Positions 37,301 through 57,205 of a stretch of 64,000 nucleotides of DNA are shown one piece after another; positions within the stretch are counted from its first letter, which is position 1; each line of letters begins with the position of its first letter. The notes beneath the pieces are model-generated. The model saw nothing but the letters and a program-made list of their open reading frames with translations, had not been told where the DNA came from and searched no databases. The stretch comes from Pocillopora verrucosa (taxonomy: Eukaryota; Cnidaria; Anthozoa; Scleractinia; Pocilloporidae), in contig NC_089315.1 in assembly GCF_036669915.1 (NCBI RefSeq), positions 8,211,611 through 8,275,610 on the forward strand. Direction: 5' to 3'. A program made the position numbers and the translations under genes.

Positions 37301-40300
37301 CCCGGTAAATAGAGATTATTCCTTGGAAAATGTGCACGAACGATTTTAATTCACGAGTTGCGAAGCATAAAAAACTAACGAGTGAGCGCAGCAAACTAGT
37401 GAGGTTTTGATGCATTGCAACCAGTGAATAAAAATTGTTCAAGCACTTTCCATGGTATGGTACTTTTATTTCATACATACTGAGATTTTTTCACATGTCA
37501 AAGATTGGAAGCGAACGACTGTGAAAATACACCGTTCGTCCAACCAGAGACACGAGCGATAGTACTTCATAGTGTAAATCTCAGTATCTGAAATAAGTAG
37601 TATTACAGGATTATGAAGTTACTTAAAAACAGCCTCGAGTGAATAAAATCACACAGGGGCAACAAGTTATGTTAATAAACGTATATGATTCGAGGATTTA
37701 CGGTGCTGTAAAAAGTGACTGGGAAAATCTTAAGGAAGCTCTGTCACATTAATTTGAGTCAGTTTCTTTAACTTGCAAATTCAAGCGTAATTTCACTTGA
37801 CCTGAAAGCTTCAAGAAATGCCGGAAACTTTTGTAAAGCATGTGTCTTGTCTATAGCTTGACATCTTTGTCTTAATGAAACAGGGACCTCCGGGACCTCA
37901 GGGGGACCGAGGACAGGCAGGACCTCGTGGATCGATGGTAAGCCGTGTTTTGTTCACGTGATTCATCATAGGGCACTTAGAGTATAGAGTAATTTGAAAA
38001 TATGTTTTTCATATCAGGGTATTCCAGGAAAAGCGGGTCTTCCAGGATTTCCTGGACCTCGTGGAGAAACGGTGAGATCCAAGTTTTGATAGAGACTTTT
38101 AGTTCATCTTGATCTTTCGTTCAAACTTTTAGTTCTCGCGATGTTTTTGATAATCTTTGGATTGAGTGCGTTTCTGTCGTGGGTTATAGGGACCTCAAGG
38201 AAAAATAGGGCCGCCAGGATCCCCCGGAATACCAGGTGGACGGGTAAGTTATTTTTAACATGTTCCGATGACAAAGAGGATCGAAAGAAAATTATCGGTT
38301 TAATTTAATCATGGCGAGGATTCCTTTCCTGTTATCACTTGACGATTTTTTTAGAGTAGATTATTGTCAATTTTGAAGAATATTAATGTTATAATTAATC
38401 CAGTATATAGGCATCACTTTCGATAACAATTAAAATAGAAAAAGTCTTCAGTTTCCCAGGAGCCGCTGAATGTCAAACCGAGAATTAGTCAAGAATTATT
38501 TGTGTACTTCAGCAAGAAGTACAAGACCTGGAAAGACCTGGAAAATTGGAGTCAAGTGGTTAAAAAGAGAATCCTTAGGAATCTGTTTCTGTAAACTGTT
38601 TGATATGAAGTAGGCTCATCGAAGTTGTCTAGCTTTTAAACTCTTGTCAAATACATAACCATGCAGCAATAGTAATCCGACCATGCCAGGTAAGAATCCG
38701 TTGGACATTCGTTAAAAAACCGCTGTGAGTCATCAACTCACCGCTGTCTGCTTAGACTCATTTTTAACATCCTCTTATTGATTTAGGGTCCTGCAGGTGA
38801 AAGGGGAAGCTCAGGATCTAAAGGAGAACGTGGCCGACCGGTGAGAACACAATAACGCATTATCCCTCTGCCCGTGTTTGTTATGATCCAAGAAGAGACA
38901 TGATGAAAGTTGTGTGGATTCACGCACTACTCTCGATAATATCGTTATTTTTGTCGTATCTAGGGACCCCAAGGATCCACAGGAGACCCAGGGGAGCCTG
39001 GCAAGGATGGTTCAAAGGTGCATAACAGTTCTTTTTTTAACCTTCTAATCTTTGAGGGTTGACGGATTTTTTTTTTTTCAGAAACGCCTGCAAAGCACTA
39101 CGTAGTTATTTGCAAAAGTGGTATTAAGTAACCCTTTGGCTTTGTTCTGCCGTTTGAGATCTGCGTTTTCCTTTTTTTCGGATAAAACGAGTTATGTTGC
39201 ATAAAACGTAAATCACGCTTTCTTTTCTATTTATCTCGTTCTGTATTTTTCCTTATCAGGGAGAGCCTGGTAAATCAGGCGCGGACGGTAAGGACGGTGC
39301 ACAGGTGAGAGCTGAAATTTTCAAGTTCTCAGTTCTGGAGTAGAAGAGAAACATGATGGTCTTTTCCTTTCCATTAAGATCCCGCTACTCTGGGAGGTGA
39401 AATGCTAACACTCAAACAATTGATTTTGCAATTTTTCTTTGGATCTGAGCATTTTTCTTGATTCTTTATATTTAGGGTCAGCCAGGAACACCAGGGCCGA
39501 AAGGTGCTATGGGACCGCCAGTAAGAAACAAGTTTTTAAAGAGATTGTCTATTTGTTAATTATCATAAGTGTTTTAGTTTTTGAAAGTTGATTGGGAATG
39601 ATTCTTGAAATTAAGCCTGAAACCCATAAGAGTGACTAGTGTCACCACTGATTATGAGACTGAATGGAAATGATCTCCAACTGAAGAAATTCTTTCAGTA
39701 TTTTTCCTTGTTAGTACCTAAGGAAATGTAAAGAGAACAGTATGAAAAATATGCATACTGATGTAAGGGAACAAGCCACCTTAAGATTATTATTTCTAAG
39801 GGTCATTTGGTTGTTTCCTCAGGGACCCGCTGGACTCAAAGGAGTAGAAGGACCGATCGGTCCACCAGGAGCACAGGTAAAGCGATGAGTATTGGTCAGA
39901 GTTTCATTTTTTTTTCTTATTACATCCACCAGCAGTGCAATTAAATCGTCCATATTTTTTCAGGGGCCTCAAGGAATGCGCGGACCACCCGGACAACCTG
40001 GACCCCAGGGTCCTATAGTGAGTTCCGCAAACATATTTTTAAGCATTTTCAATGCGTTCTCCATTATTATTCGAGCTACAGATTATTTTCATTTTTGATC
40101 TTGTAAGAGAACATCCTCTACATCCACTTTTATAATTTGGGATAGATGTACTTCGTATGTGTAATTACATGATTTCGAGTGCAATTTGCGATAAATAAGC
40201 GCGATTAAGTTTTTCAAATGCGAACAAAATTGCATGACACCGTGGGTCTAGTCCAATTTGTAGTCTTTGAAAAAATTTACGAGTTTACGAGTTTGTTTTC

Positions 40301-43300
40301 CTCTTTAGTTGATTTTACCTTGTGACATAGTTCACTGGTTCGCCCGCTTGCCTTTGCCTTGTTGCCCGAGTAGTCGGACTTCCTCCACTCTCTTTCTCTG
40401 TTAAGTATCGGTCTACGGCAGTAAACTGTGCACGAAAGCACGTATCACGCTCGTATTCTTGCCGGTTTTTCTTCCGAACTGTCACCTAAAACTCCTCGTG
40501 AAGTTTGTTCAGAGCCTCCGATTCATACTTTACAATTCCCAAGACTTCCAGACTTTAAGCCATATGTTTGCGCTTTTTGATGATTTTGTTTTTAAAATTC
40601 ACCCTCAAACTCGGAATTAAAACGTTTTACTTTCCATTTATCTGTTCGCCATTTTGGTTTGTTGGTCTTTCGCGACTCTCCTGTCAATATATTTAATTTC
40701 AACTTTCTGCACTGTTTGAGATTAAATAAAAATTTATGCATGCATTTCATTATGAAGTCAATGGAACTCTAACAATGATTATCAATCACGTGTCTTCTCG
40801 CAGGGGAGGCCAGGTCGCCAAGGACCTCAAGGACCAGCTGGAGAGAAAGGCAGTAGGGTGAGTGCACGTGCGTAGCACTCAACTTCAATTCTCTCTTCTT
40901 AATATCAAGTTAATTGCGCATGTCCTGAGTAACTGGTGTTTGACGAGTTCGCGAGTCATACTCGCGCGTGACTTCTGGCATGGCAAACTATTAGTTATTT
41001 AAAATTTGAAGCTTTCGCATGTTATCCTGTTAGGGAGAAGAAGGAGCTCGTGGAGAGCCTGGACCCGAGGGGAAAGCTGGACTTCCGGTATGTAACGTTG
41101 ACATATTTCTGATCAATAATGATATGCTGATGGATGTTTCATAAAAAAATAGTTTTAGTTGTTAGGTAGAAAGAAATATTGTTCAGTAGTTCTTTCATCA
41201 TTTGTACACAGTCCCTATGAGTTACTAAAACTTGCATCTCGTTACAGTAAGGCTACTGGTGAACGTTTTTGCTACAAACTGGACGCGTACCTGATTGTAT
41301 TGAGCTGCATGAATTGATGCCGTTAGGGACTTTGCTTTAACCGTCTGCCAGCAAACACTTGACTGCGAGTAACTAATAGGCCATTTTACAGTTGTGTACT
41401 TAGTTGCCAAGCCTTTGATTTGGAGTGAGGCTGAAGGTGACCTTGTTGTGTTAGGGACCAGAATCTAGTTAGCATGATAACAAATTAATTTGCATTTCAA
41501 AAGCAGCAAGGTTTGTATCATAACAAGGTCACCCTTAGCCTCACTCCTGTTCAAAGGCTTGGCAACCAAGCATACAACTGTAAAATGGACTATTATTTTC
41601 TTGTTTAGGGTAAACAAACTGGTGAGGAAGGACCAAGCAGGCCCCCCTGGCGAGGAGGGTGAAGAAGGTACGGGAAAATGTTTACCTTCTCTTTACAAGA
41701 ACTGCATTAATTGGGGATTCCTCAGTTTTGCACCGGCGCATTCCTGTTATGAGCATTTAAAATCACATAATTAGGGGAATGAGCGTGCGTGTATTCCAAG
41801 AAAACGCAGTGTTGTTTTTCAATCCATGGACCAATTAAAGAAGGTACGATGATCTTTCGCTCTTTAACGAGAACGGTGACCTATATTTTTTCATTGTATG
41901 ATTTTTGGTGACAAAATTATCCCTTTTAAATGGGGAAATTAAGGAAAAAATTCTTCGAAGGGAAAAAAAGATAAAGCTAAAAGCTGTGCACGAAACCCAT
42001 AGCTCGAGGATGCAAATTATGACCCTTTAAAGGAACCACTCGATGAACGTTTTGAGTGCGATTTCGTTTAAATTTGCGTGATTTTCCCACAAATTATATA
42101 TCAAATTGTTCCATACGCTCCAGACTTTCTATCCTATTTAGTTTTTTTCAAGGGTTATTTTAAAAACCCTTGCTTCTAGCTGCAGCAAAATGTAACGTGA
42201 ACCGATGAAATGACGCGCGTGATTAGTGCAAGAACAGGCATAAATGGTGTAAGTTTGGCCCAATAATATGTCGAAACAAGCACGATGAACATTTTTTTAT
42301 TGTATTTTCTGGTATGCGTGTAAGGCTTTTTCGAAATAAAGGTTGTAATGAAAAATGCGGTTCCTATTTTTCATTTTTAAGAAGGTCTTCTAGTATGACA
42401 GACCTGTTACAAATAATTCGATTGTTCAAGGAAACGAGATTTGAATTTTTTCCCTTCAGGGTGACAAAGGAACGTCAGGGCATTACCAGGGAAGAAAGGA
42501 GGACAAGGACCAAAGGTCATTTATGACGGGTGGGTTAATAAAATCGAACTGTAAACCGCTTTTCGTTTAAGTGAGGTGAAATCAACAACCAAACTGACTG
42601 ATTACACAAACGCCCATTAGCCTTTTAACTCCTGTGGGTGACCAAGACAGAGTTTCTCATACAATATCAATGCAATATCATGCAGACAAGTGATGAGAAT
42701 AATTGAATTATCTGGGGATTAATAGTTGATTCAGTGCCAAATTCTCCGAACGGAATTTCATTAGAATTGTAGGCAGACATTAAGAAGAATTACAAAAGAG
42801 ATACAGGGAATGGAAACGGTGATGTTCATGGCTTCGAGAGGTTCAACTCAACAGCACCGGTTTTCACTATCAACAATAAAAGTTAATCAGAATGAACGGC
42901 AAAGTTTTTATGTCATCTAAAGAAAGTAGACATTATTGGAACCTCAGTACGATTCCATACTCTCGAATTTTGCCGCCCGAAGCGTTTTTCAAGATTAGGT
43001 TTTGGACAGGAATATTCCGAATCGCGGGTGAGAATTTACAACATTAGCTGTGTACTGATTAATGCGGACGCTAATATCTTTAAGCGTCAACGTGCGCCTT
43101 AAGTGGTTAATTGCCAAAACCCATCAACTGATATTACCTTACCTTTTCAGGGACCTCCAGGGCCCCGCAGGACAAACTGTTACCGGGAAAAAACTGGACC
43201 GCCTGTACGTACCACAAACTGAGCAGAGAGCTTAAAGGCACTGTGCTACGAGTTTTGAAGTATGGGAAACGCATTTCGATTGAGCGTTGTGACACAAAAA

Positions 43301-46300
43301 CCAATGAATTCAAAAGAGCCAATCAGAGCAACAGGAAAGTTATCACAAGAAGCCAATGATAATTCAAAGTTAAAACAAGCAAACAGCCTAAAGCGCGGGG
43401 AAAAAACGCGAGTGACCAAGTTCAGTAAAACCAAAGCACATCCCCGATTACTTTCGGGATTGGAAAAATTTCTCTGTGTTGTAAGATATTGGTTCTGTGA
43501 GATGGGAGGGAACCTTACAATAGTAAGAATGAGGATAGCAGTAACAAAAATAACGACAGGATAAAAGATGATTACAACAGGTTGGAAAGTACGACTTTTG
43601 AGGTGCTATTTGAGGTCACCTTTTGAAATATGCACAACCAGATTTCACAGCGGTTTGTTTGTTATCTGTTGAAATTTTTCTCCATTTTCGTGCGTTCTCC
43701 ATTCTATTTTCATTTTGGTTCAGTGGTACCTTTTTAAAAAATTTGTATATAATATGTTGCGCGACTTGTCTACAATGTCTCTCACCTTTGCAATTTAAAC
43801 CGGTGCGGTTCGTTAATCAAGGATCGCTGTAAATTATAATATCACTGTAACTTTTTGATGACTTTGCGATGTTGTTAATCACTTATGCTTCAATTTTAAG
43901 TCACTTTTTTTTGTCCATAGGGCCCACCCGGTGAGATTGGACCCAAGGGGCCACTGGTTCCAAGGGGTGAGAAAGGGAGCGACGGAGGACGCGGACCACC
44001 CGGGCCTAGTGGATCTCCGGAGTTCCGGTAGGAACAAATCTTTGACTTCTCTTAGCGCCAGAGCTAAGGTGAAATAGCAAGTTAAAATTAAACGCAGTGA
44101 AAACGTTGTGGGTGTTTTTTCATGCATCATGATGTAAGGTATTGAATGATTTTTATTCTTACTTCGAAGGGCGTTCCTGGACCCAGAGGACTGAAAGGTG
44201 AAGAGGACCCGGTGGTTCACAGGGATGTTCAAAAATTGTTGTCTCAGTCGTACGCGGAAGGGATTGTTGTGGATCACGTGTTTTTTATTTCTATAGTTTC
44301 GGTTGCGCATGCGTTTAAAGAACTTTCTAATTGAGTGTTGTAAACTCAGACTGTCGCAAACGGTACAGCCAATCCAAACAAAACCGGAAATGAGAAGCAA
44401 CGAGAATGAGAACTCGAAGTAAGTACATGTAACCGACTTCAAGCGCGAGGAAACGTGGCTAATCAGGTCGCGATTGTGTTAAGTAACACATCTGATGGTT
44501 GAGAACATGACGCGAATTTTCTATGCCAATCACATGGTAAGTGAAGCTCAAAGCAACACAATCTTGGGTTAATTTTTTACAACTTTCAATTAAATATGTG
44601 TGAGAAATCAGTTAGCTTTTCTTAAATCTGTTGTCTGTCAAAGGAGCGCCTTAATCGATAATTACAACGATAATGCAACCTATAATTCAGTTAACACATA
44701 AGATTGAGTTGTGTTGACGTTAGAGTAAGAGATTCTGTGGCGCAAATTTCATTTTTTTGTGTCAAGTTATGACCAAGTACTTTGATTAGGATGTGCTCTC
44801 CTCTTTCCTAATGTTGTCTCAGTTGTCAGCAAAGCAACAAAGGTTTACTGTGCGCTACATACCTTAACAATTAATATTTTGTTTAGAAACCTGGCTTCTC
44901 AATCACTTAAATATTTTCCACCATAAAGGGACCTGATGGATTATTACTTTATTTACATCATGGTGCCGCGATAGTTTCATCATTACGATGTAACTCATTC
45001 TAAATTTAGATTTTGAAAAGTTTGTTACATTGTTTGATGTCATTATTTCGTTGTTCTCATAGGGATCTACAGGATTACCAGGTCCTCGCGGCCACCAGGA
45101 CCGGCGGGAGCTAAGGTTAGTGACATCATTAAAGATATCATCCATACGTCAGGTTTATGTGGCCAAAAACTGTTACTTGTCCTAGTGTTTCAATGGTAAA
45201 TCATTGAATAAGAGTGCGTTTGAGACAATGAAAACGTAACGAATTTGAACTCCACAGGGAGACCAAGGTGAACCTGGTGAAACCGGTGATGATGGGCGAC
45301 CTGGAGAGAAGGTGAGTGGCTTCATTATCATCCCTTAAAATGATACTCTTTTCTGTTGGATCTCTTTTTGCATTACATTTTTGGTATTTGAGATAACTTG
45401 GATAGAATGTATATGCTGTTCTAGAAGTGAATTTGGTTTCATAGGGAGATCAAGGGCCGAAAGGTGACGCAGGCGCCCAGGGCAGCAAGGCCCACCGGTA
45501 AGCTTTTAATTTATCTGCTTTCGTTTTGATATGTTTAAGAAACAATAAACCTCGTTTAGCCTGTTGCAGCTTACGTTCTCACGTGAATGCAATAAACTAT
45601 CGAATGGTCTTAGAGCCCGGTAGGTAAATAAAAAATGCTCATATACGTATCAAGGACGGGGACTAGGAAGGCTGTAAAGGAAATGTTTGAGGTTTTTTAA
45701 AACCCTTTACACCCTGACAATGCAACGTCGTCGCTTTTCACCGCTAGCTAAGTATGTCAATTCCTGGTTTTTACACCACGTGAATTTCTTTTACAGGGTC
45801 GAGCTGGTCAAGCGGGATCTAAAGGCGACCGAGGGGACCCCGGTCCGCAGGTATGTTCAGATTGTGCAAATTTCTTTTTTTCTCCTTTTCATAAGTTTCT
45901 CAAAACAGTGTAGTCGATCAGGGCTGCATTATAAAAATTATTGAACGAGACGTTTTCCGTAAAGTAGAAGAGGAAGCCAAGCAACTGAGCAACTTTTTCT
46001 CTGGTTGAGCTGCATTCCTTTTCGTGTACTCGAGAATTAAACTCATGAAGCAGTATGGTTAGAGCAGTTTCAACATATTTTTTTGTGTAAGAGTTGATGT
46101 AATAATGCTGAAAACCAGAGAAACGCGCTCCAGCCGGAGGCGAAGCTTTGGAGATGTAAGAACATGACCTTTGGTTGGGTGAACACCGGGAACCCTCTAG
46201 AGGACTTGAAATTTGTGTTATATACTTTAATTGCGTTGCTTTCTTTGCTAGGGTCCCCAGGACCACGAGGTCCCGCCGGCGCACCAGGACTCAAAGGACC

Positions 46301-49300
46301 AGTGGTGAGCATTTTTGAAATGTTGTGTATAATCACGGCTATATAATACTGAGCTCTAAATTTTGGGTCATGATTTTAGGGTGCATCTGGACCCCCAGGA
46401 CCTCAGGGCCCACCAGGGCCACAAGGTACTAAGGTAAGACTTTGGAACTGGCGTGATGTGGAGTTCTTGATATTGTGTAAATCATTTTCAGACAATCAAC
46501 ACTCTGTGAGGTGCGTTTATATGCAACATGTTTATGTACCTGCACTTTAACCCTACTCACGGAGAGAACCGTTATGAAGAATTACAGAATGTATTTGTTC
46601 ATGTAATGAGAGAGTTCCAATTTTTTTGTTTTCGTTTTTTTTTCTTTTAAAAGGGAGGTCCTGGTGCAGAGGGAAAGGACGGACAGCCAGGTCCCCCAGG
46701 AGCAAGAGTAAGTTTTCGTTTGATGGAAGATATGATTGTTTCATTTTTCTGGAACTTGTTGGATTTTTAATGAGACGTCGTGGCATCAACTTTTAAACTT
46801 TTAAAGATATTTTGCTTGACATGAAACAATTTAGTCATTTTTTATGATGGGTTGTTATAAATTTCATGAACACCAGAATATATTCGAAATGTAATTTTTT
46901 TTATGACCAATCACTTTAGAGATCTGGAAATGTTAAAAAAAAACACACACAAATCCACAAGCTTATTGGCGTACCTGCGCATGCGTACAGTTATGATTTC
47001 TCACGCCTAATTAGCTTTATTTCCTTGACACGATTACCTTTTTTTTCTCGATTTTAAACCTTATTTTTGAGTCTTGCGGTAGAAAAAAAAATGAGCTTTT
47101 GGTATATTTTATTGTTCACTTTTACCCAGGGTCCTCCAGGCGCCAGGGGAGATGATGGAAACCCCGGCAGTCCGGGTGAGCCGGTAAGTAAAGCTGTGTT
47201 GATGACACAAGTAGTTACTTAGTCTCATTCTGTCGCACGTTGTCGTTGCAGGGAGAGCCTGGGCCTCGTGGATTCAGTGGATCTGATGGCGATCCTGGTG
47301 ACAAGGTAAATACATCATCTGCTTTATGTAGGCCGCATTGAATTCAAGGGCTGGCAAAGTCTAATTTTTTGATTTTCGTATGAAGTCGTTCTTTGTCAGT
47401 GATGCATGCTCCCTTTGTTGTCATGTTTATCATAACGTTTTTTTTTTCTTTCTTTAGGGTGACACTGGTCCACTGGGTCCCCCAGGGGTGGCAGGTCCTC
47501 CTGGCCCTCCGGTAAGAATTACTTCTACGCAGCCTAAATTCAAATTAGTGGGACTGCAGCTCGCAGTAAAGTTGTTTAAAAGAACAGCAATCGTATTGTT
47601 GCGAGAATGAAAGAGGATGGGGTGTCCACTCTGCTGGCGAGTGAAATGAATCTCAAAAGATTCCTTCTCCGCTCCCACTCCCCCCAATTACTCACGGGCT
47701 GCGTGCGCATCACCCCTGCTTCTTCATCTGCATTGGTGAAATAGAGAGGTGGTTCGCATTCTTTGTTTGGTAAAAAAAAAGGAAAATAAAAAAGGTGCAA
47801 CAGCAAAATATGATACTCTTGGTTTCTTCTCGTTTGAGATGATACTTGCGTGTGAAAATATCTGGACTTCATCTTGATCCATAAAAACGTCAACGACAGA
47901 AACAAAGATCTCGGTCATTATACAGAGTTTTATTCTTCATCCTTGCTCAGTAATGGAAGTGTCCCAATGCAGAAGGTCCATTTGGTTGTTTGGTACCAGA
48001 AGCAAAAAAGAGGCGAAGAATTAACAGAGTGTGGAATATTTCTGCTATTTTCACTTTTCACCTTCAGAAGAAAATATCATTAGGTAGCCTCGAGGTGAAA
48101 AGAACTAAGATAATCAGTGTGTATCAGTGTGTATCTATACCATACTTAACGTTTGGTCAGCTTGTCTTACTTCATTACCCTGATGATCAAACACTAATCA
48201 TTATGGATGTCGATTTCAGGGACCAAGAGGGGACAGGGGACCGGTCGGCGAAAGAGGAACCCCCGGTTCTCCGGTAAGTGGAGTAATCCCGTCATCGGTC
48301 TTAATCAGTACAATTGCAAACTTAAGAAGGGTTGAATCCTGCAACTCGCATTTGCCTTCTTCAAATATTCAGTTTTTCCTGAGTACCATACTTGATGTAT
48401 AATTGCCACGCCTCTGGAGGGGATCTAAAGTGTAAGCTTTCGTTCTGAAAGCACGTTTGATATTGCCCTGGGTAATACGGTTATGATTTTTATTATTATT
48501 ATAATTATGTTAGGGTGATCCAGGACCGCAAGGATTGCCGGGACTTCAAGGACCGCGCGGAAACACTGTAAGTATCTTCCATAATAAGCTGCGAAATGAG
48601 GGAAATAGAGGAAAAGAAGAATGAACTTAAATTTGCCTCGCTCTCAACATGTGGCTTCATAGTTCAGTTGGTAGTGGCGCTCAACTAGTATTTATAAAGT
48701 GAGCTAACGAGAAATTCACTGACGCCAGCAAAAGCAAATATCACAATATCACAATGGACCAATAACAGCTTGAGGTAGAAACGTGCTTCGAGTTGATTGA
48801 AGCGCGAGCTAACGCGCAACAGCATGCTTGTGATGGGCTCATTTCACTTTTACTAATGTTTGCTTTAGCCAATAGGGTGTCTTATGGCATTGTTTATGGC
48901 CCGTGGAAGATATCATCCTTGCAAATACATGGAAACCCAATGCAGACAGGCAACTGCTTTTTAAAATACTTGGGCTGGATTATTCGAAAGAGACTTTCAC
49001 AAAGTCAGGATTAAACATTCAACTAGGTTTTAATTCCTCTGCTACAAAAGTGTGTACAATGCCGACTTTCTAGGTGGTTTAATTCATTGTGAGACAAAAC
49101 TTACGTGCTCATGAGCATGAAGCCTCTCTGCCAAGTCATAAAACTAAACGAATAATTTACCACGTGCCTGTGTTAGATTAATCATGATTGAAACAACCCA
49201 GCCGTGTCGCTTCGGTGCTGGGAGGCTTGTTTTCCGATGTCTTCAACGATATATTTTACTATTAGGGTCCAAAAGGAGAGAAAGGATTACAAGGATCACA

Positions 49301-52300
49301 GGGAGAAAAAGGAGACAAGGTAAGGAAAGAAAAATTGAAAATAAAGCAAAACACAATAGTTCCTTTTGAAAGAAAAACCTGCAGAGAGAGTTAAACTCTC
49401 AGTGACTTACGCTGGTATATTATTACAATGGAGACAAGACAAAAATAGCATCGTTTTTTTACATCAAATTTATTAACTTAACTCAGGTCAAGTAACTATT
49501 GGTTGCACAGATTTCAGCCTAGATAAATCACCACATTGAAATTAAGTAATGAAAATGATAACACCTTAATTATGATAATAATGATACTTAATATATGTAG
49601 CGCTATTTCTATTGCTATCCAAGTGATTTTAAAATATCTCACGTAGAAATGTCTAAAACATGAATAAGAAAAACTAACTAATAAAATGACTAAGCTGTCA
49701 AAATCAGAATAAAAACTAAGAATAATAAAACCATGCAAATAAAAACTTACTAGCTACCTAAATAACTTATTAACTGACTAACCAGTGATAAGTTATCTAG
49801 TAAAAAGCTTTCTTAAAAAAACTTTCCCTAAAGCTTTTCCCAAAAAAGCTTTCCTAATAGTGGGTAAGAAAGTGTAACCCAAATAGCTAAGTTAATCTAG
49901 TGTATGATCCTGATGAATTCTCTTACCAGGCAAGTGTGTGAGACAAGGTCACATCTGATAGAGTATAATAGGAAAGATAATTACAAGTGATGAATAGTAT
50001 CTTTGTATAAGATCCGATACGTGTAATACCCCATTTACACCAAAGCTTGAACATGTCTTAAAGTTGTTTTGTCAAACACAGTGTAAGTTTTTTTTGCTTC
50101 ATAGAAGCTGCTTAACCTAATATTTATTGAATTAAAATGTAGCGCACCGGAAAAACAAGTTAGCAAGTATTTGAATCCTAAACGGTTAAGAATATATGAA
50201 AGTCATATATTTGAACTGCGGATAAAGATGTGAATGAAAGTGATCCTCGCAGTAATGTGCACTACTTAGGCAGTAGTGAAAATAAGGCCTAAAAAAAAAA
50301 TTCAGGCCTGTACGGGATTTGAACCCATGACCTCTGCGATACCGAATCCTATGGAAAATTCAGTGTTTGAGTTTTCTATTTATGATTTTCACTCAGTAAA
50401 AACTTGTTTAACAAAACTGGTTTTGGTGGTATAAGCGATACAGTTAACCTTTATTTGTCGTTTTCTTTAGGGATGGCCTGGTTTCTTCGGTCCTACGGGA
50501 GTTGCTGGCCCATCTGGTGATAAGGTGTGTAAAACTAATGAAGGGGGTTACTTTCTGAAGAAACTGTGGTGCTTCATCAGTGGGAGGTGTTACATGATAA
50601 TTTGGTTTTCATAACCAAAATTGGCCAACGTAAAGAGTATCTAAAGCTGACGTTTCGACCGCGAACCCCTCGTCAGAGTGAATGAAACTAAGTTCATCAA
50701 ACTTATGACAGGCCCCCACGGTGGAAACGCTAATGGTCTTACTTATTACCGATTAAATCCTTTCGCTGCCTCAGATTTAAAAAATCAACCCTTCGCACTG
50801 TGTGCCATACATTTCTTATAGTTTCCCTCAAATAACATCCCCTACTTAACATTTTTTTTCCTCTTATTACTCATCTGCTTGAAAATTTACTGATGTGGTA
50901 AGGAGAAATTTATTTCTGGTCATTCCTGACAGTGAATGGTCGTAAAAGGATTTTTTGGTACAGTAATATGTCGTTCTGTTGAACAACTCCGTGCCATTAT
51001 GAAACGATGGTAAAAGTAGAGTAGACAGAGTTATTTTAATTATATCTATTAGATTGTCACTCAACATATACACAAATGCTGGGGAATACAATTGAATCAC
51101 ACACACGTTTTTGAGATTCTTTCGTTTCTATAGCAACATTTTAACATGCTAACTGTTTCTCTCCTAGGGTGACGTTGGTCCTCCCGGACCCCAGGGTTTC
51201 CCAGGACCCAAAGGTGACAGAGTGAGTATCAAAACAAAGTGAACTTCACTTGACCAGTACAATTAAGCTGTAAACAGGCTTTGCCACTTAGTACTTTTGC
51301 TTTTTACTTTTTGTTTTTTACGTAATTTGGGTTTTTTTTGTTTATTTTTGGGTTGTGTTTTATTTGTCTGTACCTTTCCTAGGGTGACATTTTGGTTTTG
51401 TACTTTATCTATCTAACGCTGCAGTTTTGTTGGATAATCATAAAATTGAATCAGCCATATACAACATAATAGGCAGTGCCTATCGCAGGGAGCAATTTGC
51501 CTGCACCATCCGCTTCTTCTTGATATCAGCATCCTGCAGACATTGTTGAGCCAACCCCGTAACTCTCGGGACAAAGTGTTTTGGACATTATACCCCCTCC
51601 TACCCAAACATTTTTATTTCTCGTAAATGTAGCTCCACGCACGTTTTCCAATATGTCGACTCACAGAAACTATTTCATGTGAAACTGCTGCCAAAACTGT
51701 TATATATATATATATATATATATAATTATACTTAAGTGCATTACATTGTCAGGAGCTCCTGACATTGTAAATCGATTATTAGTACTAGATGGCTTAATGC
51801 TCGGAGATTTTTCTGATTTACGCGGCTTTAAACTGGGTTGAGTTTCATCAACTAAATGTTGTGACTTACTGGGTAGTCTCTATTTTAATGGCGTCTTTAT
51901 TCTGTCCCAGGGTGAGGACGGGGACGACGGACCTGCCGGACCACCAGGGCCGTCAGGGCCTAGGGTGAGTAATGGTTATTTTTAGAGTAGATTCTAATTA
52001 CTGTATGGTTTGATGAAACTCGTGTATAGGTCCGCAATAGTATTTTTGATGTTTTGCGATTATAAAGTAAAGTGTGGACTTACCGGGTAACTAAGACAAC
52101 TACTGTCATTCAGACCAATAAACGACACGATCAATAGTTCCTCTAGGTTCCAACTATTTGTGGCTCCCGCTTACAGTGTTGCGTTACTTTGTGCGGTAAT
52201 TCGCGCCACATACATTGCGTTACATAAGTCTATTCGTTGCTAGGTTTTGACTGACATTCATATACGTTGCTATGGGCCACGTGCACCCAGATCAGATGAG

Positions 52301-55300
52301 TTTGGAGGGGTTGTTTTTGCGAGTTTGTGTCGAGTAAGAAAATTCTGTCTTTCGGTAAAGACAAGTACAATTTACGAACCAGAAAGTGTGTTATGGTCGC
52401 CACAGCGACACTATTTATTATTTAAAGAGAGAATTACTCAGAATTGTTTTTACTTTATTTGTAGGGAAGCACTGGTCTACAGGTTTGAAAATTGTTTACT
52501 TCTGTTGTCTTGTTGTGAAACTTATTTTTCGCTGTTTTTGTCCCATCCTTTTTCGTCTCAATTTTGCTTAGTGCTGACGTTTGTTTCATTTCTGTTTCAA
52601 CAGGGTACCAAGGGAGATAGAGTAAGTACAAAAAATGAATCCTTAACCCTTTGGCCCTCAAGAATGACCAGCATCTAATTTCTTCCTACAGTATCAGCCA
52701 TGAATCACACATTAAGGTCATGAGAATAAAGGAAATGATCAACAATGAAAGAGGCTATTGATTGTTAGAGAAATTCTCCTCGTCAGCACCTTTGGAAAGT
52801 ATAGAGAACAGTAAAGAGAATATCCATGTTGATGTCAGGATATAAAGAGAGGTCCGAGTTCCAGCTCAGGGTGGGCTTATTGTGTAGTGGGGAGGGGTGC
52901 GAGGCTTGGCAAGCATCTCATGCAGAGGGAGTAGCAATAATCCCTATCTTAAGCGTTGTGGTTCACATGTCCCTCGATAAAGACTTTAGTGTTCTACGGC
53001 AAGCGACTGGCTTTGAGAAGAACTGTTTCATTTTCCAACTTTCTTCTTCAACTAGCCCTGTTCGATAAGCCATGTAAAAAAAAGTTATATTGGTAATGCC
53101 CCTTTGAAAAGCCTATTACCACTGATTAAAAAGACATCTTGGTAAAACGTTGCAAAAGTACTTTTGTTTTTCTTTGAATATATTTTATATTCATACTGTT
53201 AAGACGTCGGTAGGCTTACTTGTCTCAAACGCGTTTTAATGTTTGTTCTCCTCCTCTTCCCTTCAGGGACCACAAGGAGAAAGGGTAGGTTTTGAAAAGA
53301 GTTGTTGTGTGTGCCCGGCTAGATCATCATGTGATTACAACAACTGTAATATTTTTTCTCCTGGATTGTCACTTTTATTTGTTTGTATTTTTATTTTCAT
53401 GTCTCTGACCGGGGTTTGTCTTACTTTTATTTCAGGGTGACCAAGGCACTCAAGTAAGTGATTTTATAAGTTGAGCTCTGACAGATTGTGCGATCAATTT
53501 ACAGTTGAGTTTTGAAAATAATCTGTGTAAGGGTTAGGTGGTTTTACTTCACGCTGTGATCAGTTTAACCCTTTAAACCCCAATCTAATTTCTCCATACA
53601 GTAATGCTGCTGAATCATTCATTAGCACTGTGAGAATAAAAGAAATGATCACCAACCTAAGAAGCTTTGATTGTTAAACAAATTCTCCTTGTCAGTACCA
53701 AAGGAAATGTGTGGAGAATGTAGATATTGATGGAAAGGTGTAAGGGGTTAAGAAAACTGGCACCATGTTAATTTTAAGTATGAAGGCTTTTGGTTGAGGC
53801 AGTCTCTCTCTTTTTTATCATCCGATTGTTTTAGCGTAATCTCTGCTATCTCTCGCTTCCCTGCTCCATTGCCTTCGTGGTCCTTCTCTTCTTTTCTCTT
53901 TTCTATTTCCTTTTCTCATAATTTTGTTTTAATTTATTTTTCTTTAGGGACCTCCAGGCCCACCGGTAAGAAGTAAACTATTTGTTAATCAAACATTTAT
54001 AATTAACGTGCAATTTCTCCCCGCTGATTTAATGAGAGCTTTTTCCTTGAAGGAAAACGCCCCATCCCCCATCAATTAAATGAAGAAGTGCACGCAATAA
54101 GATTGCGTATTGCACGTTGCGCAACACCAAGGATTGACCTTTAAATAAAGACCTTTTGCAGCCATTCGGTGCACAGTACATCCAATGTTCTCTTCAGCTT
54201 ACAGAAAAAGTGCCTATTTGATTACTTGTGTCGAATAATTGACGACAACTTTCTGAATTCCTTTCTGTGAAATTGTTTTTCAGGGACCTCCAGGAGACAT
54301 CGTAAGTAGTGAAATGTTGTCACCTTCTTAATTAAAGGTTTTCGACTCACCATTGTGCGAAATTATATGTGTACAGACGTTCACATGGCCTTAAGGGAAG
54401 CATTCTCCACCCACTCTCCCCAACCCCCTTCCCCCCTCTCCTTCCCATGTCTTGGAATTATGCGGTGTTGGCAAATTAAAATTAAATTTCCTTGGCTCAT
54501 ACCGCACGTGGCTACAGAGAACGTTTTATGATAACTAAATGAGGGATACTTATCTTGGTGCTGGTGATAAATTGACTGAACATGTCAATATGCGATGATA
54601 TTACGGTGCAGAAAACAATTATTTTCTGGTTCCCTTTATTTCGGCTGAGAAAATAATTTTTCTCCTTGCATTTAACAGTTTAAATGTGCTGGAGCTCTTT
54701 CTCACTTAAACACGAATATTAGCCTCTTAGCCAACTTATACATGTTAGAATCAATCAATTAAAGATAATGTTCTTTTCTGGGGTCGTGAAGCTATACTTC
54801 GACTAAATCATTGTTCAGATAATGTTCACTCTTCTCTTTTTGCTTTTGCTAGAGTTCATTCCTAAGCAGTGGCTACTTTGTGCCCGGCCGCGTAGAAGTT
54901 GGTGCGGACAAAGGAAACACCAGAAAGAGAAGATCTGTGGATTCAACACACGACACAGACTCTCAGGGACTGATCCAGTCGCTCAAGGATGAAATCGAGA
55001 GTATTAAACGACCAAGTGGAACAAAAGCTAACCCTGCACGAAGTTGTAAAGATCTACACTTATGTCATGGCGACTTGAAAGACGGTAAGTGTTGTTGAAA
55101 CCTCCAGTCGGGCGCCATGGATATCCCATGTACCTAGTAAGGGTCGAGGAGAAGAAGCTAATGAATCGAAAGGTTCGAGAACTGTCTGGGCCAAGAAGAC
55201 ATTCAACTCTCTTTATCCACTTGAGATTGACCCTTTACACCCTAACATCAGTGTGCAGATTCTCTATACTGTTATCTATACATTTCCCAAGGTGCTGACA

Positions 55301-57205
55301 AGGAGAATTTGTTTTACGATCAAGAGCTTCTTTAGTTGGTGATCATTTCCTTTATTCTCGTTGTTTAATTCAGGGGTGACATTTTATGGGGAATTTAGAT
55401 GCCAGTCACTCTTAAGGGTTAAGAGGTTAATAGTCGGTATTGGCGAACTGTCAAGGAAACTCAACTGTTGTTTGCGTGCGTGCTACTTGGTTTAGTCCAA
55501 GAGCACGCCTAGTTTTTCTCTCTAGAAACCGAGATGAGCTTCTACTGTAATTGGACTTAAGTCTCGTCAGAGTTTGCCTTACCTGAACTAAACCGACTTC
55601 TGCTTCCTTCTTTTCTTCAATAAAAACATGTAGGTTTGTACTGGATTGATCCAAACCATGGCTGTATCGAAGATGCTATTCAAGTGCACTGCAACTTTAC
55701 TGCTGGCGGACAAACCTGTATTTCTCCTGATGTCAACACTAAGCGCGTATGTACAACACCTTAATTTATCGTGCAAAAATCCTTTACAGAGCCCATGTCT
55801 TTCCTCCGTCAGTATCTTGTTTGTAGTAGTCTCCCTTGTTGCCTCTTTTTGCAAGATGTCTGAGAACAATTCTCAAGAAACGTCACGTAAAATTCGACTT
55901 AGGAAGAGAAGATTTTTGTTAGGTTTCATGTAGCCCGATTTTCCTGTCTTTCTGTGACACCACTACTTTTATTACTAATTTTATGACCTCACTTTAAGGC
56001 GATAAAATTGGATGTTTTTTTTTCATATGTCAAAAATGAGCAGGCTGCTAACAAAAAGTGGAAGAAACTCACCGGATCTGAGTGGTTTAGCGAATATGAA
56101 GATGGTTATGAGGTGACATTTTTTCCTTCGTATATTTTCATTTACTTAGCATTCATAAGTTTCTGATTGTTAGTTGGTTTGGTTGTTTTCCATTGCATAA
56201 AAGTGATTCTTTATATCTTTTTTCCAGATCTCGTATACGGGTGTTGGTAAGACGCAATTGAATTTCTTGCGGTTACTTAGCGAGAAAGCGACGCAAACAT
56301 TCGACCTGACTTGCAAAGGATCTCAAGGGTGCTTCGACAGTAAGAGTAACGCGCTGGAGAAGGCCATCAGACTACAAGGAGCTAATGATGGCATCCTTTC
56401 TTACATGAAAAACGATCCAACCGTCAAGATTACAAAGGTATGAGCGGATAGCTATGACAAGTATGAAGATGACACAGTTTTAGCCAAGTCTTAGAATGCA
56501 TCTCGAGTGAATAAATTTTTTCTTCGGTTCATACCGATCAAGCGAAGTATAGTTTGCGCCCCGACGGACATACGCACTGTCGTCGCTCGAGAACCAGGGT
56601 TTCTCGGTGTGATGGATTGCCATGGATTCTTATGTATGGGACTCCTCCGGTGCACATAGTTATTGCGCAGTAACTTCGCCATGACAAGACGTGCCCGGGT
56701 GGTTAGTCCATCGGATGGTTAGACGATTGATCAAGCTCCGATCGAGAAATCGACACCCTGAAGTTTATTTTGTATTTCAAGATTTCACGATTATCTGCTA
56801 AAGGATATGTCATGTTAAAACACCCTTTCAACTGTGTTCTTTGGTGAGTAAACTTACAGTGAAGACGAGGCCTTCAAACTCTGGAGTTATTGCGCACGAA
56901 GTAAGCGCGCTAGAAAAGCCCCATACCTAAGAACCTCTAGCAACCCCATACCTTTCTTGAACGTTCTTTTACAAGATAATTAACCACGAGTGAACGAGGA
57001 TGGTCAATGATCGGGGAGTATTGACACGCATTACATTCGACAACTTTGTTTTTTATTCTTTCCTTAGGTCCGAACAGACTGGAAAGCAGTTGTTCACGTA
57101 GAAACCGAAGACCTCAATCAAATGCCCATAGTGGACTTTGCCCCTGGAGAATTTCTTACTTCCAATGAATTTGGTTTTGAAGTTGGACCTATTTGTTTTA
57201 GTTAG
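19136..57205 (+). CDS. Fibrillar procollagen alpha chain (about 73 exons)
   Basis: Extracellular-matrix collagen chain, secreted and trimerised through its C-propeptide. Order: signal peptide, TSPN (laminin-G-like) domain, 17-triplet minor helix, non-collagenous hinge, major helix, C-telopeptide, fibrillar C-propeptide (COLFI). Nominal length is about 1,617 residues. Helix exons start with a Gly codon in phase 0 and measure 45, 54, 108 or 18 bp; summed at nominal size the major helix is 338 Gly-X-Y triplets. The TSPN plus minor-helix plan resembles the type V/XI class of vertebrate collagens. Exons between 41609 and 46304 carry indels, so the literal frame is broken there. Exon lists are given in the component entries. 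Neighbours do not suggest co-regulation. Confidence 0.95.
19305..21358 (+). other. Collagen intron 1
   Basis: 2.05-kb intron. It holds a G-rich tract at 21182-21203 close to its acceptor. No other gene is seen; an open frame that runs from 21187 into the next exon is read-through of intron sequence. Confidence 0.75.
21182..21203 (+). promoter_or_regulatory. G-quadruplex candidate
   Basis: G6-T-G4-T-G4-T-G5: four G-runs separated by single T loops, 155 bp upstream of the TSPN exon. The pattern meets the usual intramolecular quadruplex rule; a regulatory role is not shown. Confidence 0.6.
21359..22612 (+). CDS. Collagen TSPN domain exons
   Basis: Exons 21359-21885 and 22445-22612 encode about 232 residues of the thrombospondin-N-terminal-like domain of fibrillar procollagens. 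Visible marks: [19 protein letters not shown], the [18 protein letters not shown] strand typical of the domain end, and four cysteines (GLCPSR, SLDCAE, LSYC, TTDC) that in the family form two disulfides. An acidic Asp/Glu-rich stretch precedes the last strands. Junctions are clean, and the preceding split Gly/Asp codon (G|AT) agrees with exon 1. Confidence 0.92.
23229..24232 (+). CDS. Collagen minor triple helix (three exons)
   Basis: Exons 23229-23270 (42 bp), 23584-23646 (63 bp) and 24161-24232 (72 bp). After IK they encode an uninterrupted run of 17 Gly-X-Y triplets ([12 protein letters not shown] ... GPP GPP GPP), then GDGIYV. A short helix between TSPN and the main helix is a feature of V/XI-type procollagens and many invertebrate fibrillar chains. 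Confidence 0.92.
23289..23498. mobile_element. MITE-like element, family A (intact ends)
   Basis: 210 bp with a perfect 18-bp terminal inverted repeat: TAACCCTTTAACTCCCAA at left, TTGGGAGTTAAAGGGTTA at right. Non-coding. It sits in the intron only 18 bp after a minor-helix exon. It is the best-preserved copy in the window. Confidence 0.85.
24771..24851 (+). CDS. Collagen hinge exon
   Basis: 81-bp exon, phase 0 at both ends, encoding 27 non-helical residues ([20 protein letters not shown] then VVEPPAV). It occupies the place of the N-telopeptide and N-proteinase region between minor and major helix. No Gly-X-Y pattern is present. The processing site cannot be set from sequence alone. Confidence 0.85.
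25101..41087 (+). CDS. Collagen major helix, exons 1-34
   Basis: Exon starts and sizes. 48 bp: 25101 (Pro then five triplets). 54 bp: 25742, 26195, 27274, 27485, 28610, 30354, 31832, 32603, 33475, 34524, 34881, 35235, 35488, 35899, 36681, 37884, 38018, 38190, 38787, 38964, 39823, 39964, 40804, 41034. 45 bp: 29415, 30872, 32440, 33033, 33900, 36179, 37260, 39260, 39476. All begin with a Gly codon at phase 0 and contain no Gly-X-Y interruption: 194 triplets in all. Introns are GT-AG except after 30407, which uses a GC donor (CAG|GCAAGT). Confidence 0.95.
26422..26555. repeat. 70-bp direct tandem repeat
   Basis: Two copies with period 70 (26422 and 26492), sharing GGTTCTTTGTAATATCTAT and TACTCTGATTGGCTGTCGTC with a few substitutions. 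Intronic. Confidence 0.85.
26737..27084. repeat. Foldback-type repeat in collagen intron
   Basis: The left side reads GGCGACGGCAACGAGGACGT; the right side reads CGACGTCTTCCTTGGCGTTG, its imperfect reverse complement about 300 bp away. This suggests an old MITE-like element of about 350 bp. No coding capacity. Confidence 0.5.
28766..29313. repeat. Compound minisatellite in collagen intron
   Basis: Three exact copies of a 15-bp unit (TCCTTTCGTTACTCG, 28766-28810). From about 28826 follow some 480 bp of degenerate GGTC/AGTC/AATC tetranucleotide repeats in (GTCGGTTGGTTGGTCA)-like higher-order blocks. Open frames across it (Ser/Arg/Gln/Val rich) are by-products of the repeat. Confidence 0.9.
37461..37602. 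repeat. Short foldback repeat
   Basis: About 26-bp imperfect inverted arms: TACTTTTATTTCATACATAC plus TGAGATTT at 37461-37488 and AAATCTCAGTATCTGAAATA at 37576-37595, with a loop of about 85 bp. It lies in a helix intron. Confidence 0.6.
39625..39773 (-). mobile_element. MITE-like element, family B, degraded
   Basis: Retains GGAAATGTAAAGAGAACAGT and ATATGCATACTGATGT, the reverse-oriented interior of the 9465-9676 element. The ends are lost. Confidence 0.55.
41377..41592. mobile_element. Foldback element just upstream of a damaged helix exon
   Basis: Arms of about 65-70 bp: GGCCATTTTACAGTTGTG and GCCAAGCCTTTGA at left; TCAAAGGCTTGGC and CAACTGTAAAATGGAC in complement at right, with a central spacer of about 70 bp. 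Flanked by TA-containing words. The right end is 16 bp from the acceptor of the exon at 41609. Confidence 0.8.
41609..41667 (+). CDS. Major-helix exon 35, disrupted (59 bp, nominal 54)
   Basis: It runs from the acceptor TTGTTTAG to the donor GTACGG. Gly-X-Y pieces are recognisable: GGT AAA, GGT GAG GAA, GGA CCA, then in a shifted frame GCA GGC CCC CCT GGC GAG GAG. Excess bases lie in three places: CAAACT where one codon is expected, an extra A after GGACCA, and one near the end. Net +5, so the frame is lost. Confidence 0.75.
42460..42515 (+). CDS. Major-helix exon 36, disrupted (56 bp, nominal 54)
   Basis: Acceptor CCCTTCAG, donor GTCATT (weak). GGT GAC AAA GGA ACG TCA GGG is in frame; after CATTA the pattern resumes in another frame (CCA GGG AAG AAA GGA GGA CAA GGA CCA AAG). 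Two bases in excess around CATTA. Confidence 0.8.
42617..42845. mobile_element. MITE-like element, family A, degraded
   Basis: Begins TTAGCCTTTTAACTCCTGTG and shares GGTGACCAAGACA and GTGATGAGAATAA with the 10478-10692 copy. The right terminal repeat is not preserved. Confidence 0.55.
43151..43204 (+). CDS. Major-helix exon 37, internally frameshifted (54 bp)
   Basis: Its length is the expected 54 bp, but only the first two triplets and the last are in frame (GPP GPR ... GPP). In between, an extra A after CGC, missing bases around ACTGTTACC and an extra A in the AAAAAA run cancel. Read literally it gives RTNCYREKT in place of glycine-bearing triplets. Donor GTACGT. Confidence 0.8.
43921..44027 (+). 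CDS. Major-helix exon 38, disrupted (107 bp, nominal 108)
   Basis: The only double-size helix exon of the gene. A -1/+1 pair (around CCACTGG and AAGGGG) shifts four codons, then a missing G near CCGGAGTTCCG costs the final frame. Clean parts: GPP GEI GPK and [15 protein letters not shown]. Confidence 0.85.
44170..44222 (+). CDS. Major-helix exon 39, disrupted, donor missing (53 bp)
   Basis: [11 protein letters not shown](E) then one G missing in GAGGACCC; after that GGT GGT TCA CAG is in the shifted frame. The expected boundary CAG is followed by GGATGT rather than a GT donor, so one base also appears missing or changed in the splice site. A GT lies 11 bp upstream inside the exon (CCG|GTGGTT). 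Confidence 0.75.
45063..45115 (+). CDS. Major-helix exon 40, disrupted (53 bp, nominal 54)
   Basis: GST GLP GPR then one base missing in CGCGGCCACC, with the triplet pattern continuing as CCA CCA GGA CCG GCG GGA GCT AAG in the shifted frame. Donor GTTAGT. Confidence 0.85.
45258..45311 (+). CDS. Major-helix exon 41 (54 bp, intact)
   Basis: Six clean triplets ([18 protein letters not shown]) between TCCACAG and GTGAGT. One of only two intact exons in the damaged block. Confidence 0.93.
45445..45497 (+). CDS. Major-helix exon 42, disrupted (53 bp, nominal 54)
   Basis: [15 protein letters not shown], then one G missing (AAGGCCCACCG for an expected AAG GGC CCA CCG). Donor GTAAGC is intact. Confidence 0.88.
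45797..45850 (+). CDS. Major-helix exon 43 (54 bp, intact)
   Basis: Six clean triplets ([18 protein letters not shown]), acceptor TTTACAG, donor GTATGT. Confidence 0.93.
46252..46304 (+). CDS. Major-helix exon 44, disrupted (53 bp, nominal 54)
   Basis: One C missing in the leading GGTCCCC run (nominally GGT CCC CCA). The rest reads [15 protein letters not shown] in the shifted frame. Donor GTGAGC. Confidence 0.88.
46380..51964 (+). CDS. Major-helix exons 45-55
   Basis: Eleven clean 54-bp exons starting at 46380, 46654, 47130, 47252, 47458, 48220, 48514, 49266, 50471, 51168 and 51911. Each has six perfect Gly-X-Y triplets in phase 0 with GT-AG borders, 66 triplets in all. The exon at 49266 is Lys/Glu rich ([18 protein letters not shown]). 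Introns hold repeats but no genes. Confidence 0.95.
48655..48700 (+). repeat. tRNA-like 5' segment, possible SINE fragment
   Basis: TAGTTCAGTTGGTAGTGGC resembles a tRNA box A promoter, but no box B follows at the right distance. It is probably a short SINE relic in a collagen intron. Confidence 0.3.
50300..50350 (-). repeat. tRNA-derived SINE tail
   Basis: On the minus strand, ATCGCAGAGGTCATGGGTTC followed by AAATCCCGTACAGGCC is a tRNA box B/T-arm sequence, followed by an A/T-rich tail. No matching box A lies upstream, so this is a truncated retroposon rather than a tRNA gene. Confidence 0.65.
51701..51724. repeat. TA microsatellite
   Basis: Uninterrupted TA dinucleotides over about 24 bp in a helix intron. 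Confidence 0.9.
52465..54301 (+). CDS. Six consecutive 18-bp helix microexons
   Basis: Exons 52465-52482 (GST GLQ), 52604-52621 (GTK GDR), 53267-53284 (GPQ GER), 53436-53453 (GDQ GTQ), 53948-53965 (GPP GPP) and 54284-54301 (GPP GDI). Each has a pyrimidine-rich AG acceptor, a Gly codon in phase 0, two triplets and a GT donor (GTTTGA, GTAAGT, GTAGGT, GTAAGT, GTAAGA, GTAAGT). They bring the major helix to 338 triplets. Because all are multiples of nine in phase 0, skipping any of them would keep the frame. Confidence 0.88.
52643..52850 (-). mobile_element. MITE-like element, family B
   Basis: Starts TTAACCCTTTGGCCCTCA. Shares AATCACACATTAAGGTCATG and TTCTCCTCGTCAGCACC with the inverted copies elsewhere. 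The right end is degraded. It lies between the second and third microexons. Confidence 0.65.
53565..53751 (-). mobile_element. MITE-like element, family B
   Basis: About 187 bp from TTAACCCTTTAAACCCC to GGTGTAAGGGGTTAA, with inverted ends. It shares ATTCTCCTTGTCAGTACC with other copies. It lies between the fourth and fifth microexons. Confidence 0.75.
54853..57205 (+). CDS. Collagen C-telopeptide and C-propeptide (five exons)
   Basis: Exons 54853-55084, 55634-55746, 56044-56112, 56228-56437 and 57068-57205; stop TAG at 57203-57205; 253 residues. After the helix comes a short telopeptide, then RKRRS (a basic cleavage candidate), a heptad-like [59 protein letters not shown] and the terminal [11 protein letters not shown]: the classic COLFI domain that drives trimer registration. 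Eight cysteines are present, but the seventh is displaced (CKGSQGC) compared with vertebrate chains. No indel is seen here. Confidence 0.96.
55227..55430 (+). mobile_element. MITE-like element, family B
   Basis: TTGACCCTTTACACCCTAAC at left, AAGGGTTAAGAGGTTAA at right. Shares ATTCAGGGGTGACAT and GCCAGTCACTCTTA with the 9465-9676 copy. It lies in a C-propeptide intron. Confidence 0.7.

Follow-up and report, generated by a model that had tools for sequence, protein, structure and literature searches.

Fibrillar collagens are the classic example of genes assembled from a 54-bp unit. The window analyzed here, a 64-kb stretch of a 353-Mb genome (C4:8211611-8275610), raises the question of whether such a gene can finish its triple helix with six consecutive exons of 18 bp, as claimed by the original prediction, and, if so, whether this arrangement is old or recent and whether all of the exons are regularly included in the message.

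The window gene is a fibrillar collagen gene, in which a COLFI C-propeptide follows a Gly-X-Y helix. The joined C-propeptide exons matched PF01410 (COLFI) with E=4.3e-54, and their best PDB match was collagen alpha-1(I) (E=7.6e-37). From 25742 to 54301, the helix comprised 279 triplets in 52 phase-0 chain exons, with 54- and 45-bp exons in its body, and the nine 45-bp exons all lay between 29.4 and 39.5 kb. One more helix exon was found at 25104, outside the chain. About eight further helix exons at 41600-46310 appeared to be shifted in frame by one or two bases, in most cases close to G/C runs, and the remaining exons of the chain were clean; this stretch probably represents poorly polished assembly, and possibly decay. 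When the frame-shifted exons and the exon at 25104 were added at their nominal lengths, the helix total was estimated to be near 338 triplets, and 338 triplets is the usual length of a fibrillar helix. Without the six 18-bp exons, the helix would be twelve triplets short. One 54-bp helix exon, ending at 30407, has a GC donor (GCAAGTATCG).

Helix exons were located with a mechanical scan for the pattern AG/(GGN NNN NNN)n/GT. Both direct reading and the scan confirmed that each of the six 18-bp exons is flanked by AG and GT, is in phase 0, and encodes two Gly-X-Y triplets. They are preceded by a helix exon of 54 bp and followed by the telopeptide/COLFI exon, and thus form the end of the triple helix; together they measure 108 bp, every one being a multiple of three. 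Microexons are exons of 27 nt or less, a limit that the 18-bp exons fit with canonical splice sites. Splice sites were scored by means of a matrix for which 187 exons of at least five triplets from 13 genes served as the training set. The acceptors of the six exons (6.5-11.1 bits) fell between the 27th and 88th percentiles of these training exons and the donors (5.9-11.0 bits) between the 17th and 92nd, so that all six are within the ordinary range. The weakest is exon 1, with the donor CAG/GTTTGA; GTTTG-type donors like this one also follow the window-gene exons ending at 33944 and 34934. The introns around the six exons measure 500, 121, 645, 151, 494, 318 and 551 bp, and the upstream helix introns have a median of about 410 bp (n=46, range 68-1509 bp), as derived from an exon chain that misses a few exons.

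Features of the window gene from the helix body to the C-propeptide, with splice-site scores of the 18-bp exons
Feature	Position	Strand	Acceptor (bits)	Donor (bits)	Remark
Major helix body	25742..51964	+			37 chain exons of 54 bp, 9 of 45 bp
Last 54-bp helix exon	51911..51964	+			Mechanical scan
18-bp exon 1, GSTGLQ	52465..52482	+	11.1	5.9	
18-bp exon 2, GTKGDR	52604..52621	+	6.5	8.1	
18-bp exon 3, GPQGER	53267..53284	+	9.3	9.1	
18-bp exon 4, GDQGTQ	53436..53453	+	10.8	8.5	
18-bp exon 5, GPPGPP	53948..53965	+	10.6	11.0	
18-bp exon 6, GPPGDI	54284..54301	+	7.2	6.1	Triple helix end
Telopeptide and C-propeptide (COLFI) start, 232 bp, opens SSFLSSGYF	54853..55084	+			Donor phase 1
COLFI exon 2 (YWIDPNHGC...)	55634..55746	+			Limits approximate; acceptor score weak (-1.2)
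COLFI exon 3	56228..56437	+			3' limit approximate
COLFI last exon	57068..57202	+			Stop codon directly after

The helix ends of related genes in the same genome were then compared. This genome carries clustered GFP-like genes on C1 (74 matches), which agrees with an anthozoan such as a coral. Because 150 of 414 COLFI candidates were scored in the genome search, the number of fibrillar collagen genes is a lower bound. Thirteen loci outside the window were picked as fibrillar-collagen-like, and the 10 kb upstream of each were read. One of them (L019 at C10:10.225 Mb, which stops inside its COLFI match) was dropped, as no helix exon of at least two triplets was present in the 10 kb upstream. The comparison thus covered 13 tails, those of the window gene and of 12 paralogues; other COLFI matches, on C11, C8, C3, C14 and elsewhere, lay outside it. 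At C11:4.44-5.09 Mb, and also on C8, C3 and C14, many partial COLFI matches are clustered. Those on C11 mostly cover profile positions of about 17-70 and often lie within one open frame of 220-270 amino acids, and, judged by the matches, these clusters would represent a separate large family.

Exons of 18 bp were present in 12 of the 13 tails (11 of the 12 paralogues), 33 exons in total. On C4, the window gene has six in a row, L020 has five, followed by a candidate exon opening with GPPGQV, and L021 has four, followed by a candidate exon opening with GPPGPPGVPGS. Eight of the ten C10 genes have tails of 36-18-18-36 bp, and the other two have 36-18-18-27 bp (L009) and 36-36-36 bp (L012), so that the short exons sum to 108 bp in nine of the ten. 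For six of the C10 genes, the scan also gave a next exon with one or two extra triplets at its start, e.g. GPPG or GEPG. Two of the tail exons, the second 18-bp exon of L010, which has a poor donor (GTATTTTT), and the first 36-bp exon of L018, were seen on reading and are absent from the scored scan. The C10 genes (L009-L018) are clustered at 8.57-10.32 Mb, where at least ten fibrillar collagen genes lie in either orientation; the 10 kb read for each contained helix exons of 54 and 108 bp, and most tails are 36-18-18-36. As this helix end bears 18-bp exons in 11 of 12 related genes, the array appears to be an old layout rather than a one-off or a misreading.

The frequency of such sites was quantified in shuffled and reverse-strand sequences. 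In the 2.9-kb tail of the window gene, 1000 dinucleotide shuffles yielded on average 0.019 two-triplet sites, compared with six real ones; none of the sites in these shuffles had both splice scores of at least 4, and all six real ones did. The gene strand of the 13 tails (47.8 kb) contained 38 two-triplet sites, of which 33 are the exons and five are nested or stray; 32 of the 38 had both scores of at least 4. The reverse strand of the same tails contained one site, and none with both scores of at least 4. Shuffles of all 13 tails contained 0.24 sites on average, and no site reached both scores in 200 shuffles. With the score filter off, the whole reverse strand of the 64-kb window contained one two-triplet site. 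A relaxed scan, which was able to list well-spliced two-triplet pieces with one glycine missing, listed none.

The age of the small introns was addressed with a tree of the COLFI domains, which was built from 156 columns of conserved pieces and had incomplete rows, above all for L013, L014, L020 and L021. It split the ten C10 genes from the C4 trio and two human sequences, COL1A1 and COL3A1, which are clade A collagens and the only vertebrate members of the tree; the support for this split was modest (79/79). The three C4 genes were not together in the best tree and formed one clade in 41% of the bootstraps. L012 was placed as the sister of L017 (36-18-18-36) with a support of 87/86, and, because its sister has the intron between pieces 3 and 4, L012 most likely lost it.

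When 36-18-18-36 and six times 18 are aligned exon by exon, the introns between pieces 2/3, 3/4 and 4/5 are common to C4 and C10. These three internal positions are probably older than the C4/C10 split, provided that the register is correct. With the upstream exons included, shift 0 scored best (12 of 13 tails, without L015). The shifts were further compared for separate parts, with permutations for shift 0 (12 of 13 tails, without L017). For the tails alone, shifts of 0, +1 and +2 triplets gave much the same similarity, with the signal coming from the Gly-Pro-Pro end. Pieces 1-4 alone gave no register signal, as 491 of 2000 permutations reached the shift-0 value and shift +1 scored higher. 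The upstream exons alone showed a mild preference for shift 0 (45 of 2000 permutations), and shift -5 scored slightly higher. As the C4/C10 register is therefore unsettled, the identity of the shared introns is partly deduced.

These results bear on the proposal, put forward in the original prediction, that the introns were gained late. According to this explanation, the window gene had a single ordinary exon of 108 bp or two of 54 bp, which new introns recently cut at proto-splice sites between triplets. The lengths would agree, as 108 bp is 2 x 54 bp and the exons directly upstream measure 54 bp, and, under register 0, C4 genes alone have the introns between pieces 1/2 and 5/6, for which the C10 tails show no counterpart. 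However, paralogues on either side of the main split in the COLFI tree have 18-bp exons at the same end, and, because the paralogue tails carry such exons, it is unlikely that the five internal introns of the window gene were all gained late. A gain peculiar to this gene is not supported, given the 18-bp exons in 11 of the 12 paralogues, and we assign a low probability to late independent gain as a whole.

A reading in the opposite direction is that an ancestral grid of 18-bp (two-triplet) exons survives as a relic at the 3' end of the helix, that the 54-bp exon is a fusion of 3 x 18 bp, and that fibrillar collagen genes elsewhere lost the introns while cnidarian genes kept them where helix folding starts. 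In the stretches read, the 18-bp exons listed were confined to the last part of the helix, and the clean exons of the window gene's helix body measure 54 and 45 bp. Because of this confinement, nothing in the present data demonstrates an origin of 54-bp exons from 18-bp ones, and we regard this scenario as speculative and improbable.

Next, we compared the splice sites of the small exons with those of longer exons. Eighteen bases are too few for the usual exon definition. The acceptors of the 33 18-bp exons scored 9.84 bits, compared with 8.03 bits for the 187 longer exons (p=2.4e-4), and the pyrimidine fraction in the 20 bases before the AG was 0.81 versus 0.71 (p=4e-7). The 20 exons of 36 bp from the same tails showed no rise in acceptor score (7.14 bits, p=0.13) or pyrimidine fraction (p=0.52), and the donors of 18-bp and longer exons did not differ significantly (p=0.10). 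Because the exons of one family are not independent, the comparison was also performed gene by gene: acceptor scores were higher for the 18-bp exons in 11 of 12 genes (p=0.007) and pyrimidine fractions in 12 of 12 (p=5e-4). The exception was L010, in which the 18-bp exons have weaker acceptors than the longer ones. Nested sites were omitted from the acceptor comparison, as were four stray two-triplet sites outside the exon series (in L009, L012, L013 and L018); with the four strays restored, the difference was smaller (8.62 versus 8.03 bits, p=0.010; pyrimidine fraction 0.77, p=6e-5). These values suggest that strong polypyrimidine tracts offset the shortness of the tiny exons and keep them in the message. 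The mRNA is predicted to contain all six exons, with the paralogues as indirect support.

The small exons might instead be regulated cassette exons, some of which are skipped in certain tissues, so that the length of the helix shifts by steps of two triplets. All pieces are 18 bp long and in phase 0, so that any subset would keep the frame, and the first donor is weak (5.9 bits). On the other hand, the acceptors of the 18-bp exons are stronger than average, which favors regular inclusion, and the short exons sum to 108 bp in nine of ten C10 genes. Furthermore, the three chains of a collagen trimer must match in length. The original prediction had noted that each exon could be skipped in frame; their length indeed permits it, but the sequence gives no hint of it, and we consider regulated skipping to be decidedly unlikely.

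Tandem duplication of one 18-bp exon together with its introns would account for the presence of GGACCTCCAGG in both exons 5 and 6, and for the grouping of exons 2, 3, 5 and 6 in one 36-nt repeat family at 61-78%. However, such similarity between exons is produced by Gly-Pro-Pro coding and the splice consensus anyway, and no alignment was obtained among the seven introns beyond a repeat shared by introns 3 and 5, the best other match being 15 bp long (E=0.047). Introns 3 and 5 are alike because both hold this interspersed repeat, which was also found at 39 other scored places in the genome. Tandem duplication is thus largely refuted, and we rate it as very improbable. The repeat is about 200 bp long and is present in the window at 52640-52870, 53583-53718, 55233-55430 (-), 9471-9676 (-), 9812-9983 and 39654-39768. 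Genome-wide, there were 3532 candidates, of which 40 were scored, and the long copies, excluding self-matches, were 81-87% identical. Lastly, that phantom exons were picked from introns by eye is barely conceivable, since, although any one piece measures only 18 bp and a single piece could still fail, the shuffle and reverse-strand controls and the same arrangement in paralogues refute this for the set of six.

Taken together, it is likely that the six pieces are genuine constitutive microexons, which belong to a family-wide 18-bp grid over about 108 bp and have strong acceptors; from the sequences we infer their inclusion, the age of three of the introns, and the compensation for their shortness. 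According to this explanation, the six microexons would encode the last twelve Gly-X-Y triplets, which adjoin the telopeptide at the nucleation end of the helix. The nucleation of fibrillar helices is followed by growth in the C- to N-terminal direction, as stated in a figure legend of PMC2852846. In the fibrillar collagen family of this genome, the roughly 108 bp at the helix end would be divided on an 18-bp grid, and the set of grid introns would vary between paralogues (six 18s, 36-18-18-36 or 36-36-36). Each small piece would probably be recognized singly via its unusually pyrimidine-rich acceptor. The series of tails offers a natural test set for intron gain versus loss and for the splicing of very short exons. 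In addition, gene models of such collagens may omit the last twelve triplets, which adjoin the nucleation site.

Shorter exons at the 3' end of the helix may also occur in vertebrate type V/XI collagen genes. These genes (clade B) form a separate group in exon structure, according to PMC2852846. The same source describes metazoan fibrillar collagen genes with exons of 54, 108, 162, 45 and 99 bp and models based on 54/45-bp units. As in the fibrillar genes of the Yamada and Ephydatia models treated there, each phase-0 exon of the window gene runs from a Gly codon to a complete Y codon; in contrast to the 54/45-bp genes described there, the last 108 bp of its helix are cut into six. The term "18 bp" does not occur in the main text of PMC2852846. 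The open-access titles and abstract beginnings surveyed contained no account of 18-bp exon arrays in fibrillar collagens, and older papers may tabulate such exons. A second comparison is with the microexons of animals, exons of about 3-27 nt known from the SRRM4 neural program. The 18-bp exons of the window gene and its paralogues resemble these in size, preservation of the frame, and strong pyrimidine tracts; unlike animal microexons in general, they belong to a matrix gene, and several follow one another consecutively.
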